From: Phenylobacterium sp.
Lineage (GTDB): Bacteria; Pseudomonadota; Alphaproteobacteria; Caulobacterales; Caulobacteraceae
NCBI GenBank assembly: GCA_003136395.1
Contig: PLEH01000291.1
Span: 1 to 34,776, forward strand
DNA: 34,776 bases
Direction of reading: 5' to 3'
This document shows positions 754 through 34,776 of this stretch, piece by piece. The position numbers and the translations under genes are program-made. The first letter of the stretch is position 1; every line of letters begins with the position of its first letter. A model generated the notes under the pieces. The model was not told the DNA's origin. It did not search any database and saw only the letters and a program-made list of their open reading frames with translations.

Positions 754-2343
754 ATGACCTCCAAGAAGACCGGCTATCTCCTGGGCGCCATCGCCGGCGC
801 CGGCGTCATGGCCGCCGCGGTGGCGGGCGCGGGCATGAAGCTGCCCGCCGCCCACGCCGATGGGGCCGGCCATCTGATCCGGGCGTCCACGGCGCCGATC
901 TTCGCGCCGCCGCCAGGCGCGCCCATGTCCTTCGCCGACATCTTCGACCGCGTCTCTCCCGCGGTGGTGTCGATCAATGTCACCAGCCGGCCGGACGCCA
1001 GCGCGCTGCGCAAGATCCCCGGTTTCGAGAATTTCCCCTTCGACCTGCAGCCGCGCGGCGGCCAGGGCGGCGGCGACGACGAAGAGGGCGGCGCGCCGCC
1101 GCAGGGCGGGCGCACCGACAAGGGCCAGCCGAAGCTGCCGACCCAGCAGTCGGCGGGCTCGGGCTTCTTCATTTCGGCCGACGGCTACATCGTCACCAAC
1201 AATCACGTGGTCGAGAACGCCGAGTCCATCAAGGTGGTCATGAAGGACGAGACCGAGCTCGACGCCACCGTGGTCGGCCGCGACGAGGGCTCGGACCTGG
1301 CGGTGATCAAGGTCAAGAGCGGACGGACCAACTTCCCGTTCGTGAACTTCGAGAACGCCGGCAAGCCGCGCGTCGGCGACTGGGTGATCGCGGTGGGCAA
1401 TCCCTTCGGGCTGGGCGGCACCGCCACGGCCGGGATCATCTCGGCCTACGGCCGCGACATCGGTGAGACCTTCGTCGACTACATCCAGATCGACGCCCCC
1501 ATCAACCGGGGCAACTCTGGCGGCCCGACCTTCGACATCTATGGCCGGGTGATCGGGGTGAACACCGCGATCTTCTCGCCCTCCGGCGGCTCGGTGGGCA
1601 TCGGCTTCGCCATTCCCGCCGAGGTGGCCGACAATGTCACCAAGCAGCTGATCGCCGGCGGCAAGATCCAGCGCGGCTACATCGGCGCCACCATCCAGAA
1701 CTTCACGCCGGATCTCGCCGAGGCCCAGGGTCTGGGCGCGCAGAAGGGCGCGATCGTCTCCGACCTGGTGCCCGCGGGCCCCTCGGCGCGCGCCGGCCTC
1801 TTGCCCGGCGACGTGGTCGTGGCGATCAACGGCGTCGCGGTGAAGACCTCCACGGAACTGACCCGCGAGGTCGCCAAGGGCCGGGCCGGCGACGTCCTGA
1901 AGCTCGACGTGATCCGCGAGGGCAAGCATCGCCTCATCGAAGTGCGCTCGGGAATCCGCCCCTCGGAAAAGGACCTGGCCTCCAACGACAACACGCAAGG
2001 CCAAGGCGGCGGCGCCGCGCCGACGACCCCGCCGGCGACCCATCCGTCGGTGCTCGGCATGGCGCTGGGCCCGCTCGACGAGGCCACGCGCCGGCGGCTG
2101 AACGCTCCGCCCGAGCTCAAGGGCGTGGTGGTCGAGAGCGTCGACCAGACCTCCGACGCCGGCCAGAAGGGCCTGCACCGCGGCGACGTGATCGTGCAGG
2201 CGGGCGGCCATCCGGTGAGCACCGCCGCAGAGGTTTCCGCCGCGGTCGACGCCGCCAAGAAAGCCGGGCGCGCCGGCGTGGCGATGGGCATCTTCCGCCA
2301 GGGCCGCACCACCTTCCTGGCGCTGAAGATGGCGGCGGGCTAG
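754..2343 (+). CDS. degP: Do/DegP family periplasmic serine endoprotease with two PDZ domains
   Basis: GSGFFISADGYIVTNNHVV (catalytic His), SDLAVIKV (Asp), GNSGGPTF (Ser), two PDZ-like regions; start assigned to ATG 754 (MTSKKTGYLLGAIAG...). Confidence 0.92.
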   Translation: MTSKKTGYLLGAIAGAGVMAAAVAGAGMKLPAAHADGAGHLIRASTAPIFAPPPGAPMSFADIFDRVSPAVVSINVTSRPDASALRKIPGFENFPFDLQPRGGQGGGDDEEGGAPPQGGRTDKGQPKLPTQQSAGSGFFISADGYIVTNNHVVENAESIKVVMKDETELDATVVGRDEGSDLAVIKVKSGRTNFPFVNFENAGKPRVGDWVIAVGNPFGLGGTATAGIISAYGRDIGETFVDYIQIDAPINRGNSGGPTFDIYGRVIGVNTAIFSPSGGSVGIGFAIPAEVADNVTKQLIAGGKIQRGYIGATIQNFTPDLAEAQGLGAQKGAIVSDLVPAGPSARAGLLPGDVVVAINGVAVKTSTELTREVAKGRAGDVLKLDVIREGKHRLIEVRSGIRPSEKDLASNDNTQGQGGGAAPTTPPATHPSVLGMALGPLDEATRRRLNAPPELKGVVVESVDQTSDAGQKGLHRGDVIVQAGGHPVSTAAEVSAAVDAAKKAGRAGVAMGIFRQGRTTFLALKMAAG

Positions 2344-2345
2344 CC

Positions 2346-2507
2346 AGCGTGCTGGATTTGAAGTTCGTCTCAGTCATGACCAAGCGCCGTGCGAACTTCA
2401 AATCCAAGAAGCACGCTGGAAACGTAGGCTTGCTAGTGTCCTCATCGATTCCGAAGTTCGTCCGAGCCTGCCGCAAGCGCTCGCGAACTTCGGAATCGGG
2501 ACACTAG
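2346..2507 (+). repeat. Copy A of a bipartite double-hairpin intergenic repeat
   Basis: Hairpin 1: AGCGTGCT+GGATTTGAAGTTCG (2346-2367) pairs with CGAACTTCAAATCC (2392-2405)+AGCACGCT (2410-2417). Hairpin 2: CTAGTGTCC (2433-2441)+GATTCCGAAGTTCG (2447-2460) pairs with CGAACTTCGGAATC (2484-2497)+GGACACTAG (2499-2507). Homologous over its whole length to the reverse complement of 31863-32027. Confidence 0.93.
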
Positions 2508-2531
2508 AGCGTTCGCGGGGGCGGAAAACAG

Positions 2532-3203
2532 ATGCGGATCCTGATCGTCGAAGACGACCTCGAGGCGGCCGACGCCATGGAACGCGGGCTCTCGGAAGCC
2601 GGCAACGCCTGCACGCGCGCGGCGGACGGCGAGGAGGGCCTCACCGCCGCCCGCGACGGCGAGTTCGACGTGATGATCGTCGACCGCATGATGCCGAAGA
2701 TGAACGGCGTGCAGCTGATCGAGACCATCCGGCGCGAGGGCGACCAGACGCCGGTCCTGTTCCTGTCGGCGCTCGGCGAGGTCGGCGACCGGGTGGCGGG
2801 CCTGCAGGCGGGTGGCGACGACTATCTGGTCAAGCCCTACGCCTTCGCCGAACTGATCGCGCGGGTCGAGGCGCTCGCGCGCCGCCGCGAGACCGGGTCG
2901 GTGCAGACCCTGCTCAGGGTCGGCGAGCTGGAGATGGACCTGATCGGGCGCACCGTGCACCGGCAGGGCAAGGAGATCGACCTGCAGCCGCGCGAGTTCC
3001 AGCTCCTGGAATTCATGATGCGCCACGCCGGCCAGTCGGTGACCCGGACCATGCTCCTGGAAAAGGTCTGGGAGTATCACTTCGACCCGCAGACCAACGT
3101 CATCGACGTGCACATCTCGCGCCTGCGTTCGAAGATCGACAAGGGCTTCGACCGGCCGATGCTGCAGACCGTCCGCGGCGCCGGCTACCGGCTGGACGCG
3201 TAG
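2532..3203 (+). CDS. feuP: OmpR-family response regulator (FeuP-like)
   Basis: Receiver domain MRILIVEDDLEAADAME...MIVDRMMPKMNG...VKPYAF plus winged-helix C-terminus (VWEYHFDPQTNVIDVHISRLRSKID); context degP-RR-HK-glnE matches rhizobial degP-feuP-feuQ-glnE. Confidence 0.88.
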   Translation: MRILIVEDDLEAADAMERGLSEAGNACTRAADGEEGLTAARDGEFDVMIVDRMMPKMNGVQLIETIRREGDQTPVLFLSALGEVGDRVAGLQAGGDDYLVKPYAFAELIARVEALARRRETGSVQTLLRVGELEMDLIGRTVHRQGKEIDLQPREFQLLEFMMRHAGQSVTRTMLLEKVWEYHFDPQTNVIDVHISRLRSKIDKGFDRPMLQTVRGAGYRLDA

Positions 3204-3221
3204 GCGGCGGACGGCGCGCTG

Positions 3222-30786: not shown

Positions 30787-31803
30787 TCAGTTATAGGCGA
30801 CGGTGACGACGAAACTGCCACTGTAGTCGCCGTTGAGCGTCGAGGCGTTGATCGGCGCGGATCCGCCCACCCCGATGGTGAAACTGCCAGCCGAACCAAG
30901 AGTCGAGCTGAGCATCGCCGTGCCGGCGACCGAGCTCGAGGTGGTGACGGTCATCGTCTGCGGTCCGGTCATGTCGAAGGTCGCCGGCACGGTCACCGAG
31001 AAGGTCTGGCCGCCCTCGCCGGTGACGCTGAAGGCCGCGCGTGTCGGGACCGGCGTATCCAGCCCCTGGGCGCCGCTGAAGGTGCGCGCGCCCGTGATCG
31101 CGTCGATAGTCACCGAGCCGGCGCCGGCCAGGGGTTTGACCACCCGGCCGAACACCAGGTCCGAGGTCTTGGCGATGGCGATCGAGCGGATGACGGTCGC
31201 CCGGAAGGGGCCGATCGCGCCGGAGGTGGGCGTCGCCGGGCTTTCGGCGGCGAAGGCGAAGAAATCCGCCTCCGCCAGGCCTGTCGGCAGGCCGGAATCG
31301 TCGCCCGCCACGCCCATGTCGGCGCCCATGAAGAAGGTCTTCGAGGAATTGGGGCCGATGGCGGCGATGGTGAAGGCGCCGGAGCCGGGCGGGCCGGGCC
31401 CGCCGGTCAGCTGGGCGGTGCCCATGGTGAAGGTGATGCGGGTGAGCGCCCGCGCGCGTCCGATGGGCGACCCCGCCGAACCCAGGCGGATGTTGACGTT
31501 TTGGGTGCAGTCGCCGGCAAGGGACGCCGCGCAGCTGACCGTCACCATGGCCCGCGTCGCGCCGGCGCTGGCGCGGGTCGCGGTCCCGGAGATCGTGGTC
31601 ACCGCACCCGAGGTCGGGTCGATGCGGAACACCGTGTTGCCCGTCGCCGCCGAGGTGACCGTGCCGAGGTCGACGCTTTGGGTGATCTGGACCGAATAGA
31701 CCGGCGCGGCCTCGGCGGCCCCTGAAAGGCTCAGGAGGAACAGACCCCCGCCAAGCGTCGCAGCGCCACGCCAAAGGCCCCTGAAGCTGATGAGCCTGTT
31801 CAT
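30787..31803 (-). CDS. Exported protein with two DUF4402-like domains (putative fimbrial/surface subunit)
   Basis: Signal peptide MNRLISFRGLWRGAATLGGGLFLLSLSGAAEA; two related segments, each with strands like DLGTV.../DLVFGRVV..., GxVTI/TTISG and Thr/Ser/Gly-rich beta segments; ends GDYSGSFVVTVAYN. Start at ATG 31803. Confidence 0.7.
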   Translation of the reverse strand: MNRLISFRGLWRGAATLGGGLFLLSLSGAAEAAPVYSVQITQSVDLGTVTSAATGNTVFRIDPTSGAVTTISGTATRASAGATRAMVTVSCAASLAGDCTQNVNIRLGSAGSPIGRARALTRITFTMGTAQLTGGPGPPGSGAFTIAAIGPNSSKTFFMGADMGVAGDDSGLPTGLAEADFFAFAAESPATPTSGAIGPFRATVIRSIAIAKTSDLVFGRVVKPLAGAGSVTIDAITGARTFSGAQGLDTPVPTRAAFSVTGEGGQTFSVTVPATFDMTGPQTMTVTTSSSVAGTAMLSSTLGSAGSFTIGVGGSAPINASTLNGDYSGSFVVTVAYN

Positions 31804-31862: not shown

Positions 31863-32027
31863 GCTTGCGTCCCGATTTCGAAGGTCGAAAGCGCTTGCGG
31901 CCAGCGCCCGCCGGACTTCGAAATCGATGAGGACGCCAGCAGGCGTAGGTTTCAAGTGTGCTTCTTTGGATTTGAAGTTCGCTGAGCGCCTTGTCCCGAA
32001 TGGGGCGAACTTCAAATCCAGCACGCT
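31863..32027 (-). repeat. Copy B of the bipartite double-hairpin intergenic repeat (inverted relative to copy A)
   Basis: Hairpin 1 arms at 31955-31981 and 32006-32027; hairpin 2 arms GCGTCC+GATTTCGAAG (31867-31872, 31874-31883) and CTTCGAAATC+GGACGC (31916-31925, 31931-31936). The reverse complement aligns with 2346-2507. Confidence 0.92.
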
Positions 32028-32036
32028 TGCGCACAG

Positions 32037-34776
32037 TCAGCAGGGCGGCCGGGCGTCCGCATCGCCGCGGGGTTCGAATTTCACCTCCGCGGCGACATCC
32101 GGGGTAATTGAACCGTCCGGCCTAATTGTGACGCTGACCGGGGCGGTCAGGCGCATGCGCAGGCGCGCGGCCTGGTCCTTGTCCAGTTCGACGCGGTAGG
32201 TCCCGGCCGGCACATCCTGGAAGTTCACCGAACCGTCGAACTCGGTGATGCCTTCGATGGCCACGCCCTTGTCGTCCACCAGCCGAACGCGGGTGGCCGA
32301 CAGGCCGACCGGCGGCTGGTCCGGCCGGCGCAGCTTGACGTTGACCATCACCTCGCCGGTGGGGCGCATGGGATATTCGACGGTGGTCACCCCGCCGGGC
32401 CGCGGCGCGAACTCGACGACCGATGGCGGCGTCTTGACCTGCTGGTTCTCGACCTCGGCGATGCCCACCAGCAGGCGCGCGGTGGACCCGGCGCCAAAGC
32501 CCGAGAGGTAGGCGCGGCCGTCCGCATCGGTCTTGACCCGAAGCTCCCCGCCCTCGAGCGAGACATTGGCCACCGGGCGCTCACCCGGATCGAACTTGCC
32601 GTTGCCGTTGGCGTCGATGAAGGCGTGGAAGGCGACGGAGCTGCCCGAGCCGGGGCCGGAGCGGGTGAGCTGGTAGCCGGATTGCGGGTTGTAGCCGACA
32701 CCGAAGTTCATCTGGGCGCCGAAGCGCCAACTGGAGTCGGCGGTGTCGTACTGGCCGGTCAGGGCCAGGTCGCCGAACTTGGTGCGGGTGGTGCTGCCGG
32801 CCAACAGTTCCGTGCCCTTGGGCGCGTCCAGCCGCTCGGTGGCCCCGAACCGCAGGGACCAGGTGTTGGAGATGGTCCGGTCGACGAGGATCTCCAGGTC
32901 GCTCGGCTTGACGTTCGGAACCAGGTCGTAGTTCAGCGTCCCGCGCACCTGCCACTGGTAGTTGCGGAAGGTGGAGAACCCCAGCGATCCGCGCAGGAGG
33001 TCGTTGACCTGGCCGTTCGCCGCGGTGTTGCGGTCATATTCGAAGCCGGTCGAATAGAGGATTCTCCCCACCGAGGTCGTGGCACGCACCTGGCCGATCC
33101 AGGCGCGCCCGCCGTCGGCGTAAATGTCGCGCAGCGCGCGCACGGTCAGGGGCACGAGTTGGCGTCCGAAGCGCACATTGTCGTCGACGGTGACCTCGGT
33201 GCGACGGGTCAGCGGCCGGTCGATGGTCGCTTCGGAATTGTTCTCGTCCAGCAGGCCGCCGCGGTACTCGGAATGACGGAACAGGGTGTTGGCGCCCAGG
33301 ATCCGGCCGGCGACATCGACCGAGGCGCCTTCGCCGCCCCGGTTGTCCGCGGCCACGTCGAACTGGGTCGCGAAGCCGGCGATCGAGGTGCGCAGGCCCG
33401 CGGTGTAGAGATCGCGCTGGACCCCCAGGGTGTCGGAGTAGACCGCCGCGCCCAGGGCGGCAGTGACATATTGGGTGAGGCCGTAGTTGATGTTGGCCAC
33501 GACCCTTGGCCGGCCGAGGCTGCGGTCGACGGCGAGGGGGTCGATGCTGCGGACCCGGAACAGCGGTTGGTTCTGGTCCACGGCGCCGAACTCAAGGGTC
33601 ATCTGGCCGGGCCGCAGCAGGCCGCCGCTGGCGTTGATGACCCGGGTTTCCTCGTTGCGCTGACCGCGTGGGCCGTAGGTCACGATGCGGACCACATTGA
33701 CGCCCTGGGTAAGCGGCACGTTGAGGAATTCGTAGCGGCCGTTGACGGCCGTCTGCTGAGCGGCCTGCAGGACGTCATTGACGTAGAGCTCGACATCGTC
33801 GCCGAGCGGCAGTTCGCCGCGCAGGTCGACGCGGTTGAAGACGCTGGTCTGATCGAGCGGGACGGTCGAGAGCTCGAACCCGCGGCCGCCGAGGCTCCGG
33901 GGTCCGATCGACAGACCCGGCGTGAAGACATCGCCCAGGCCGACCACACGGGCGTGCAGCGGACCCAGCAGGTCGCCGTCGAGCGACCGCTTCTCGAGGA
34001 GGACCCGGGCCGTGTTCGCCCGGCCAGCGTCGTCGGAGCCGACATAGGCCTGCAGGCCGGCGTAGAGCAGGTCTCCGCCCAGGCGGATGTCATAGCGGGT
34101 CGGAGTCTTCGGCTCGACAGTCTGGGCGCCCAGTCCCAGCGCGATGTCGAACGAGGGCGGGCTGAACAGCCTGTAGGGCTCGTCGACCCGCATCACCTGG
34201 CGCGCGGTCGGGTTGGGCGCCGTCTGGCGCAGCCGGGCCAGGCGCTGCAGCCGACCCTGTATGGGCAGGAGCTCGGTGGCGGTCAGCCGCATCTGCAGGG
34301 CGCGTCCGTCGACGTCGAACTTCAACGGCAACAGCTGAGCCAGGACCGAGGCGCGCACATAGATGTCGGCGGGCTCGACCGCCACGTCCCCGGCCGCGAG
34401 GGGGATCTGCATCGGACCGACGCGGGCGGTGTTGGTGGCCAGGTCGATGATCAGCGAGCGCCGCGCCTCGCCCAGGCGGCCCACCACCCGGCCTTCGCTC
34501 GGAGTGACGTCAATGTCGAGCTCCAGCAGCCGGCTGAGTTCGCCGACCGGCAGCAGGGGATCGTCGGCGGAGCCGTAGGCGGCCATGCCCTCGCTGACGA
34601 TCGCTCCGAGGCCGCACGCGTCGAATGCCGCGGCCACGTCGAGGTCTCCTGCGCTGGTGAGCGTCGAGGTGATGCACCCCTGCGCCTGAGAGTAGGTGAG
34701 CGTCGGGGAGTAGGCGCGCATGCTCGCCTCGGCGGTGGAGACGATCTCCCCCGAGTAGCTGCTGCCGTTCGCCCAG
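32037..34776 (-). CDS. Fimbrial usher-like outer membrane protein (5' end outside the window)
   Basis: DDPLLPVGELSRLLELDIDV, SIGPRSLGGRGFELSTVPLDQTSVFNRVDLRGELPLGDDVELYVNDVL, YGLTQYVTAALGAAVYSD, C-terminal FIDANGNGKFDPGERPVANVSL. The frame stays open upstream of the ORF-track Met at 34721 to the window edge (WANGSSYSGEIVSTAEASMRAYS...). Confidence 0.75.
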   Translation of the reverse strand, partial: WANGSSYSGEIVSTAEASMRAYSPTLTYSQAQGCITSTLTSAGDLDVAAAFDACGLGAIVSEGMAAYGSADDPLLPVGELSRLLELDIDVTPSEGRVVGRLGEARRSLIIDLATNTARVGPMQIPLAAGDVAVEPADIYVRASVLAQLLPLKFDVDGRALQMRLTATELLPIQGRLQRLARLRQTAPNPTARQVMRVDEPYRLFSPPSFDIALGLGAQTVEPKTPTRYDIRLGGDLLYAGLQAYVGSDDAGRANTARVLLEKRSLDGDLLGPLHARVVGLGDVFTPGLSIGPRSLGGRGFELSTVPLDQTSVFNRVDLRGELPLGDDVELYVNDVLQAAQQTAVNGRYEFLNVPLTQGVNVVRIVTYGPRGQRNEETRVINASGGLLRPGQMTLEFGAVDQNQPLFRVRSIDPLAVDRSLGRPRVVANINYGLTQYVTAALGAAVYSDTLGVQRDLYTAGLRTSIAGFATQFDVAADNRGGEGASVDVAGRILGANTLFRHSEYRGGLLDENNSEATIDRPLTRRTEVTVDDNVRFGRQLVPLTVRALRDIYADGGRAWIGQVRATTSVGRILYSTGFEYDRNTAANGQVNDLLRGSLGFSTFRNYQWQVRGTLNYDLVPNVKPSDLEILVDRTISNTWSLRFGATERLDAPKGTELLAGSTTRTKFGDLALTGQYDTADSSWRFGAQMNFGVGYNPQSGYQLTRSGPGSGSSVAFHAFIDANGNGKFDPGERPVANVSLEGGELRVKTDADGRAYLSGFGAGSTARLLVGIAEVENQQVKTPPSVVEFAPRPGGVTTVEYPMRPTGEVMVNVKLRRPDQPPVGLSATRVRLVDDKGVAIEGITEFDGSVNFQDVPAGTYRVELDKDQAARLRMRLTAPVSVTIRPDGSITPDVAAEVKFEPRGDADARPPC

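Follow-up and report, generated by a model that had tools for sequence, protein, structure and literature searches.

The segment that follows the stop codon of an 894-aa protein gene on the minus strand is, with a probability of about 80%, a copy of a mobile palindromic repeat with CTAG, and therefore stop codons, as its landing place. Its placement after a gene most likely reflects the landing site, not a switch that separates two neighbouring genes. The repeat belongs to a family with dozens of copies in the genome, and comparison of filled and empty sites in related species identifies CTAG as the site of insertion.

Two copies in the window and their neighbours

The window, the whole 34,776-nt stretch that was analysed, contains two copies, designated A and B. 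Their positions, parts and flanking genes are as follows.

754–2343, plus strand: gene of an HtrA/Do-like trypsin-PDZ protease (Pfam Trypsin_2 and PDZ), upstream of copy A
2340–2343, plus strand: CTAG with the TAG stop of the HtrA/Do-like gene, beside the insertion of copy A
2344–2507, plus strand: copy A, 164 bp, directly after the htrA-like stop codon; ends CCAG...CTAG
2532–3203, plus strand: response regulator gene (Pfam), downstream of copy A; about 25 nt from htrA in element-free relatives
3200–3221, plus strand: empty site (GACGC-GTAG-GCGG); the relative G015 has a repeat copy between CTAGs here
30787–31803, minus strand: gene of a protein with a DUF4402 domain, downstream of copy B
31864–32029, minus strand: copy B, diverged two-hairpin repeat of 166 bp; ends CAAG...CAAG instead of CTAG...CTAG
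31864–31935, minus strand: hairpin 2 of copy B (limits approximate)
31936–31948, minus strand: linker of copy B, about AAACCTACGCCTG (limits approximate; alignment and cross-order consensus)
31949–32029, minus strand: hairpin 1 of copy B (limits approximate; fold and family covariation)
32037–34721, minus strand: gene of the 894-aa protein, upstream of copy B, with its TGA stop at 32037–32039

As the original prediction had it, the reverse complement of copy B matches copy A from end to end (134 of 168 alignment columns, 80% identity), the linker is common to both, and the loop word CCGCAAGCGCT occurs at 2471–2481 in copy A and at 31890–31900 on the minus strand in copy B. BLAST with copy A recovered copy B at E = 1e-35 together with dozens more in the same genome, and chance likeness of the two copies is thereby excluded. 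Both fold far better than their shuffled versions (z = -10.2 for copy A and -5.3 for copy B; none of 200 shuffles was as good). Hairpin 1 of copy B consists of the stem GGATTTGAAGTTCGC / GCGAACTTCAAATCC and a basal stem, with AAAG unpaired on the 3′ side and perfect 16-bp arms at 31967–31982 and 32005–32020. Hairpin 2 has the stem CGATTTCGAAG / CTTCGAAATCG and the basal bulge TCAT. Both GANTC sites of hairpin 2 are lost in copy B (GATTT / AAATC); GANTC is present in both arms of hairpin 2 in copy A. An Rfam scan of the window returned no family match.

Two details of the surroundings were revised. A spacing of stop codon, 9 nt and element had been proposed as common to both copies; copy A starts 0 nt after its TAG and copy B 7 nt after its TGA, the latter figure applying when the ends are set on the terminal CTAG of the family (CAAG here) and becoming 9 nt with the end used previously. 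As overlap with the stop is the mode in the family, a fixed stop-to-element spacing was rejected. The 894-aa protein had been called usher-like, a label that finds no usher family in Pfam or NCBIfam, where only sub-threshold beta-sandwich matches were obtained. We also note that about one-third of the genus keeps its gene beside that of a DUF4402 protein.

Copy number and conservation of the hairpins

BLAST with copies A and B, combined with a covariance model, revealed no fewer than 47 full copies in the assembly of this genome (4.9 Mb, 336 contigs). Eight other genomes of the same genus contain at least 44, 18, 16, 8, 6, 6, 2 and 1 copies. The covariance model was built from 41 copies and finds more of them than BLAST; all of these counts are lower bounds, the best 150 candidates per genome having been scored. 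No copies were found among the best 150 candidates in each of the near relatives G088, G046 and G054, and the presence of the repeat is thus patchy. Contig ends are often no more than a few hundred bases away from a copy (for example in contigs C80, C118, C283 and C5 of G072 and C291, C245 and C72 of G000), which suggests that the repeat breaks assemblies and that the true copy numbers are higher.

The family consensus runs CTAGTGTGCTGGATTTGAAGTTCG...CGAACTTCAAATCCAAAGAAGCACACTAG, followed by the linker AAACATAGACTTG and then by CTAGTGTCCTCATCGATTCCGAAGTTCG...CGAACTTCGGAATCGGGACACTAG, with CTAG at the foot of each hairpin, four times in total. Changes on both sides of a pair were observed at 20 of 48 pairs, compared with 5.3 in shuffles, and the pairing is lost when the partners are slid, which shows that the helices are maintained at the level of DNA or RNA. 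The individual hairpins are near-palindromic, and either strand folds alike.

Spread on plasmids or phages was rejected, as blastn with copy A finds no match in them and the hairpin-2 pattern matches no more than 12 stretches among 2.9 million viral contigs. The partial matches include no clear case of a split autonomous element, with a gene between the hairpins.

CTAG as the probable landing site

The sequence context was examined for 148 full copies with their flanks from nine genomes of the genus. Gene calls came from a home-made codon-usage caller that was trained on the window and recovers the genes there well; its start codons are rough, and its stop codons are exact if the frame is correct. 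The terminal CTAG is found at the 5′ end of 118 copies and at the 3′ end of 124, and conservation ends there. In 90 of the 148 copies the terminal TAG is the exact stop codon of a neighbouring gene, with 66 such fusions at the 5′ end, 41 at the 3′ end and 17 at both, the last between convergent genes. A test free of the gene model, which requires an open frame of 100 codons or more to end on the terminal TAG, gave 102 of 148.

Base composition predicts 2.9 background sites per kb for the tetranucleotide, which was observed at 0.45 per kb and is about six-fold rarer than expected; the 293 background sites divide into 106 TAG stops, 101 intergenic and 86 coding ones. Only four copies overlap called genes, and these are read as calling errors. 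Where both neighbours were called without overlap (132 copies), 68 copies lie between co-directional, 41 between convergent and 23 between divergent genes, a spread similar to that of the non-coding CTAG sites (77, 35 and 28, respectively). This match indicates that random insertion at CTAG, followed by loss of coding insertions, is enough to explain most of the placement. Stops remain moderately over-represented (61% of the copies and 51% of the non-coding CTAG sites). Copy B itself counts against the landing explanation, since it possesses no terminal CTAG and is not fused to the stop of its neighbour.

Empty sites in related genomes

The junction between the htrA and response-regulator genes lacks the element in all 29 relatives compared, where most gaps measure 20–34 nt, and the CTAG at the htrA stop is conserved in many of these element-free relatives. 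In this genome the same junction reads CTAG, then CCAG...CTAG, and then the same downstream leader. The cleanest comparisons, in which CTAG-element-CTAG at one locus is paired with a single CTAG at the other, are provided by G002 (L223, filled) with G000 (L038, empty) and by G069 (L234, filled) with G072 (L191, empty). In both pairs the target is duplicated on insertion, one CTAG in the empty site becoming two in the filled one, as is expected of miniature inverted-repeat elements (MITEs). These comparisons are between species at roughly 74–94% identity, and no recent jump within a species is shown by them, a limit that weighs against the landing explanation. Ends of mixed type, TTAG...CTAG and CTAG...CTAA, are also present; they hint at duplication of the TA inside CTAG, and decay could give the same ends.

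The same operon of G015 has a copy one gene farther on, at the stop of the response-regulator gene, where the window is empty. That junction, between response regulator and histidine kinase, carries an unrelated palindromic repeat of about 150 bp, of the CCCTCTCCC...GGGAGAGG type, in G067 and G072 (L099 and L097). This junction has thus been filled repeatedly by different repeats.

Orientation relative to transcription

The element had been proposed to act in a transcription-linked manner and, at copy B, to uncouple the stoichiometry of the usher-like protein and its subunit. A general version of this idea, considered as a rival explanation, is an attenuator, a terminator or a stabiliser of mRNA 3′ ends, as suggested for the REP/BIME elements of E. 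coli, which is selected in the sense orientation after insertion and sets the ratio of upstream to downstream products. An orientation bias is real in the genus: between co-directional genes, 49 copies lie in sense and 19 in antisense in the nine genomes (binomial p = 0.0004), a test that is slightly optimistic because a few copies are common to several species, and the corresponding numbers for this genome alone are 20 and 7. The hairpins are also very stable as RNA, and REPs within 15 nt of a stop can stall ribosomes (PMC12306157, PMC5082802). However, what had been named as contrary evidence is in part observed: 23 of the 132 copies are divergent and 41 convergent in setting, distributed as the CTAG background is, and the feature that stays constant is the CTAG landing site, often a TAG stop. 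The near-palindromic hairpins also fold alike from both strands. Furthermore, the element is conserved at neither the htrA nor the usher junction of relatives. At the latter, where the gaps in relatives reach about 120 nt, three close relatives (flanks of 69–81% nucleotide identity) retain the gene order without the element, and conserved uncoupling of the two products was accordingly rejected.

A similar tendency is seen in convergent pairs, where the 5′ end abuts the stop by 15 to 8 (p = 0.2, not significant), which suggests that the sense bias may arise at insertion rather than through transcription. In other Alphaproteobacteria, 125 copies show 26 stop fusions at the 5′ end only and 22 at the 3′ end only. 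The bias is real in this genus, and it is neither absolute nor universal. Insertion preference and selection on RNA are not separated by these data; the flanking contexts were tabulated for a base preference that could cause the bias and gave no clear answer. The insertion rule alone leaves the bias unexplained, which counts against the landing explanation. On balance, the statistical bias lends partial support to a link with transcription, which is not the main rule of placement; a transcription-linked regulator is an unlikely account of the element, and the landing-site reading is retained below.

Comparison with known repeats and candidate enzymes

The closest description is that of the Caulobacter CcrM-associated intergenic repeats (CIRs; Chen & Shapiro 2003), as given in the accessible text of Delihas 2007 (PMC2229807). 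According to this text, CIRs are multi-copy intergenic repeats of 100–200 bp in Caulobacter and other Alphaproteobacteria, composed of two long inverted repeats that form two arms with a linker, containing GANTC, ending in TA and possessing no ORF. The two inverted-repeat arms with a linker are found here, as are the TA ends, the intergenic setting and GANTC within the repeat, copy B having none in hairpin 2. In contrast, described CIRs measure about 110 bp and have GANTC in the terminal loop of one arm or close to it, whereas the present repeat is about 165 bp long with GANTC in the stem of hairpin 2. The accessible literature makes no mention of CIRs landing on CTAG or on stop codons. We would call the repeat CIR-like rather than file it as a CIR, the likeness being one of described anatomy.

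The element shares with ERIC, Correia/NEMIS and RUP, all of them MITEs, a short (<300 bp), non-coding, multi-copy nature, inverted ends (GTGT...ACAC), TA ends and patchy intergenic occurrence. It differs from them in having two separate hairpins and a linker instead of one stem from end to end, and in that no parent insertion sequence was found among the three transposase families tested. Br-REP1 and Br-REP2 of Bradyrhizobium (Hahn et al. 2016, PMC5082802) are likewise alphaproteobacterial palindromic elements that occupy 3′-UTRs, lie between convergent genes and contain GATTCCGG, but their published core consensus sequences are unlike the repeat here. For Afipia and Nitrobacter, the same study mentions a ‘larger repetitive element’.

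We also considered a system of the REP/RAYT type, with pairs of inverted hairpins mobilised by a Y1 tyrosine transposase. The inverted pair of palindromes, the basal bulges and the terminal tetranucleotide resemble a REP dimer, and the GTAG REPs described by Di Nocera et al. 2013 (PMC3733652), whose palindromic units commonly form inverted pairs, also frequently supply the TAG stop of the flanking ORF from their end tetranucleotide. Those units, however, are 20–40 bp long, bear a GTAG or CGTC tag and, in the case of GTAG, are linked to transposase genes; the repeat here ends in CTAG and has longer stems and units of about 75 bp. Y1_Tnp had no match in G000, G072, G067, G069, G015 and G098, which comprise this genome and most of the high-copy relatives and all bear copies, and where Y1_Tnp genes do occur, in G002, G009, G068 and G096, the element does not flank them. 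Both the tag and the transposase tests thus fail, membership was rejected, and a mechanism of this type appears highly improbable.

No candidate for the mobilising enzyme emerged from the three transposase families tested (PF01797, PF13358 and PF01609), which counts against the landing explanation. This genome lacks IS630-type DDE_3, and no CTAGTG ends lie near the few DDE_Tnp_1 genes; IS630 and IS4/IS5 (DDE_Tnp_1) parents were rejected, the genes being few and none of them flanked by CTAGTG...CACTAG. The accessible literature contains no report of an enzyme that moves CIR-like repeats, and Delihas 2007 (PMC2229807) remarks that the mechanism of mobility needs more information.

Distribution in Alphaproteobacteria and GANTC sites

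A scan of genome contigs for the hairpin-2 stem found at least 120 stretches, nearly all alphaproteobacterial among the matches listed, with Bradyrhizobium, Afipia, Nitrobacter, Hyphomicrobium, Devosia, Magnetospira, Parvularculaceae and Caulobacter ginsengisoli as hosts. Most of the matches listed represent the same two-hairpin element with the linker CTAGAATCATAAACTTGCTAG and a variable hairpin 1. The linker is AAACATAGACTTG in the family of copies to which those of the window belong and AATCATAAACTTG in other Alphaproteobacteria (cross-order consensus). Within the taxonomic family of the window, 30 of 150 genomes yielded matches, as did 11 of 22 genera. An Acidobacteria-labelled MAG contains a copy (L259, CALFMR010000399.1) that hardly differs from the consensus for the genus of the window; this is probably a misbinned contig or contamination. 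The Hyphomicrobiales MAG CP_BM_RX_14 has the CCGAAGTTCG stem in both hairpins of three copies (L262, L309 and L320), possibly recombinants between subfamilies.

At least one GANTC is present in 138 of the 148 copies of the genus and exactly two in 104, and in other orders GANTC occupies three positions in 89, 80 and 61 of 125 copies. At one locus (L035, G000:C239:4000-10300) the element, at about 3033–3198, lies approximately 90 nt upstream of ccrM (1865–2944, minus strand; N6_N4_Mtase and RAMA) and adds two GANTC to a leader that already has two. That the GANTC in hairpin 2 and at the linker is read by CcrM/GcrA as a cell-cycle timed regulatory site is the least probable of the alternatives considered: the motif is frequent and recurs in other orders, and this genome has ccrM, yet copy B persists after loss of the site, 10 copies contain no GANTC, and copies lie at gene ends rather than at promoters.

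Proposed mode of insertion and implications

We propose that the segment is a mobile palindromic repeat, non-autonomous and about 165 bp long, formed by two imperfect hairpins and a 13-nt linker. Insertion at the palindromic CTAG would leave CTAG at both ends, as the empty-site comparison shows for the clean pairs, and insertions inside genes would be purged. Given that CTAG is strongly depleted in this GC-rich genome and that about a third of its sites are TAG stops, most surviving copies would then lie on or just after stops. A stop codon would survive insertion because the landing site is restored at both ends, and both genes of a convergent pair with one CTAG in common would still end in a stop. 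For the compensatory changes that maintain the hairpins, the simplest reason would be that folded DNA or paired ends are the substrate of the enzyme. Effects on RNA, such as 3′-end protection or attenuation, may be side effects that would explain part of the sense bias; they are not needed for where the copies lie.

Tentatively, the repeat may represent an Alphaproteobacteria-wide family of hairpin pairs for which the rarity of CTAG makes stops safe landing sites, the stop being rebuilt on both sides, and whose putative enzyme recognises folded hairpins together with CTAG. Through its choice of target alone, a repeat can come to lie after genes and look like part of a regulatory arrangement, and statistics on the position and orientation of bacterial repeats therefore need a control for the target site. 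If the landing rule holds across Alphaproteobacteria, it would explain how a high copy number is reached at little cost, and CTAG with paired hairpins would offer a handle for finding the enzyme that moves CIR-like repeats.
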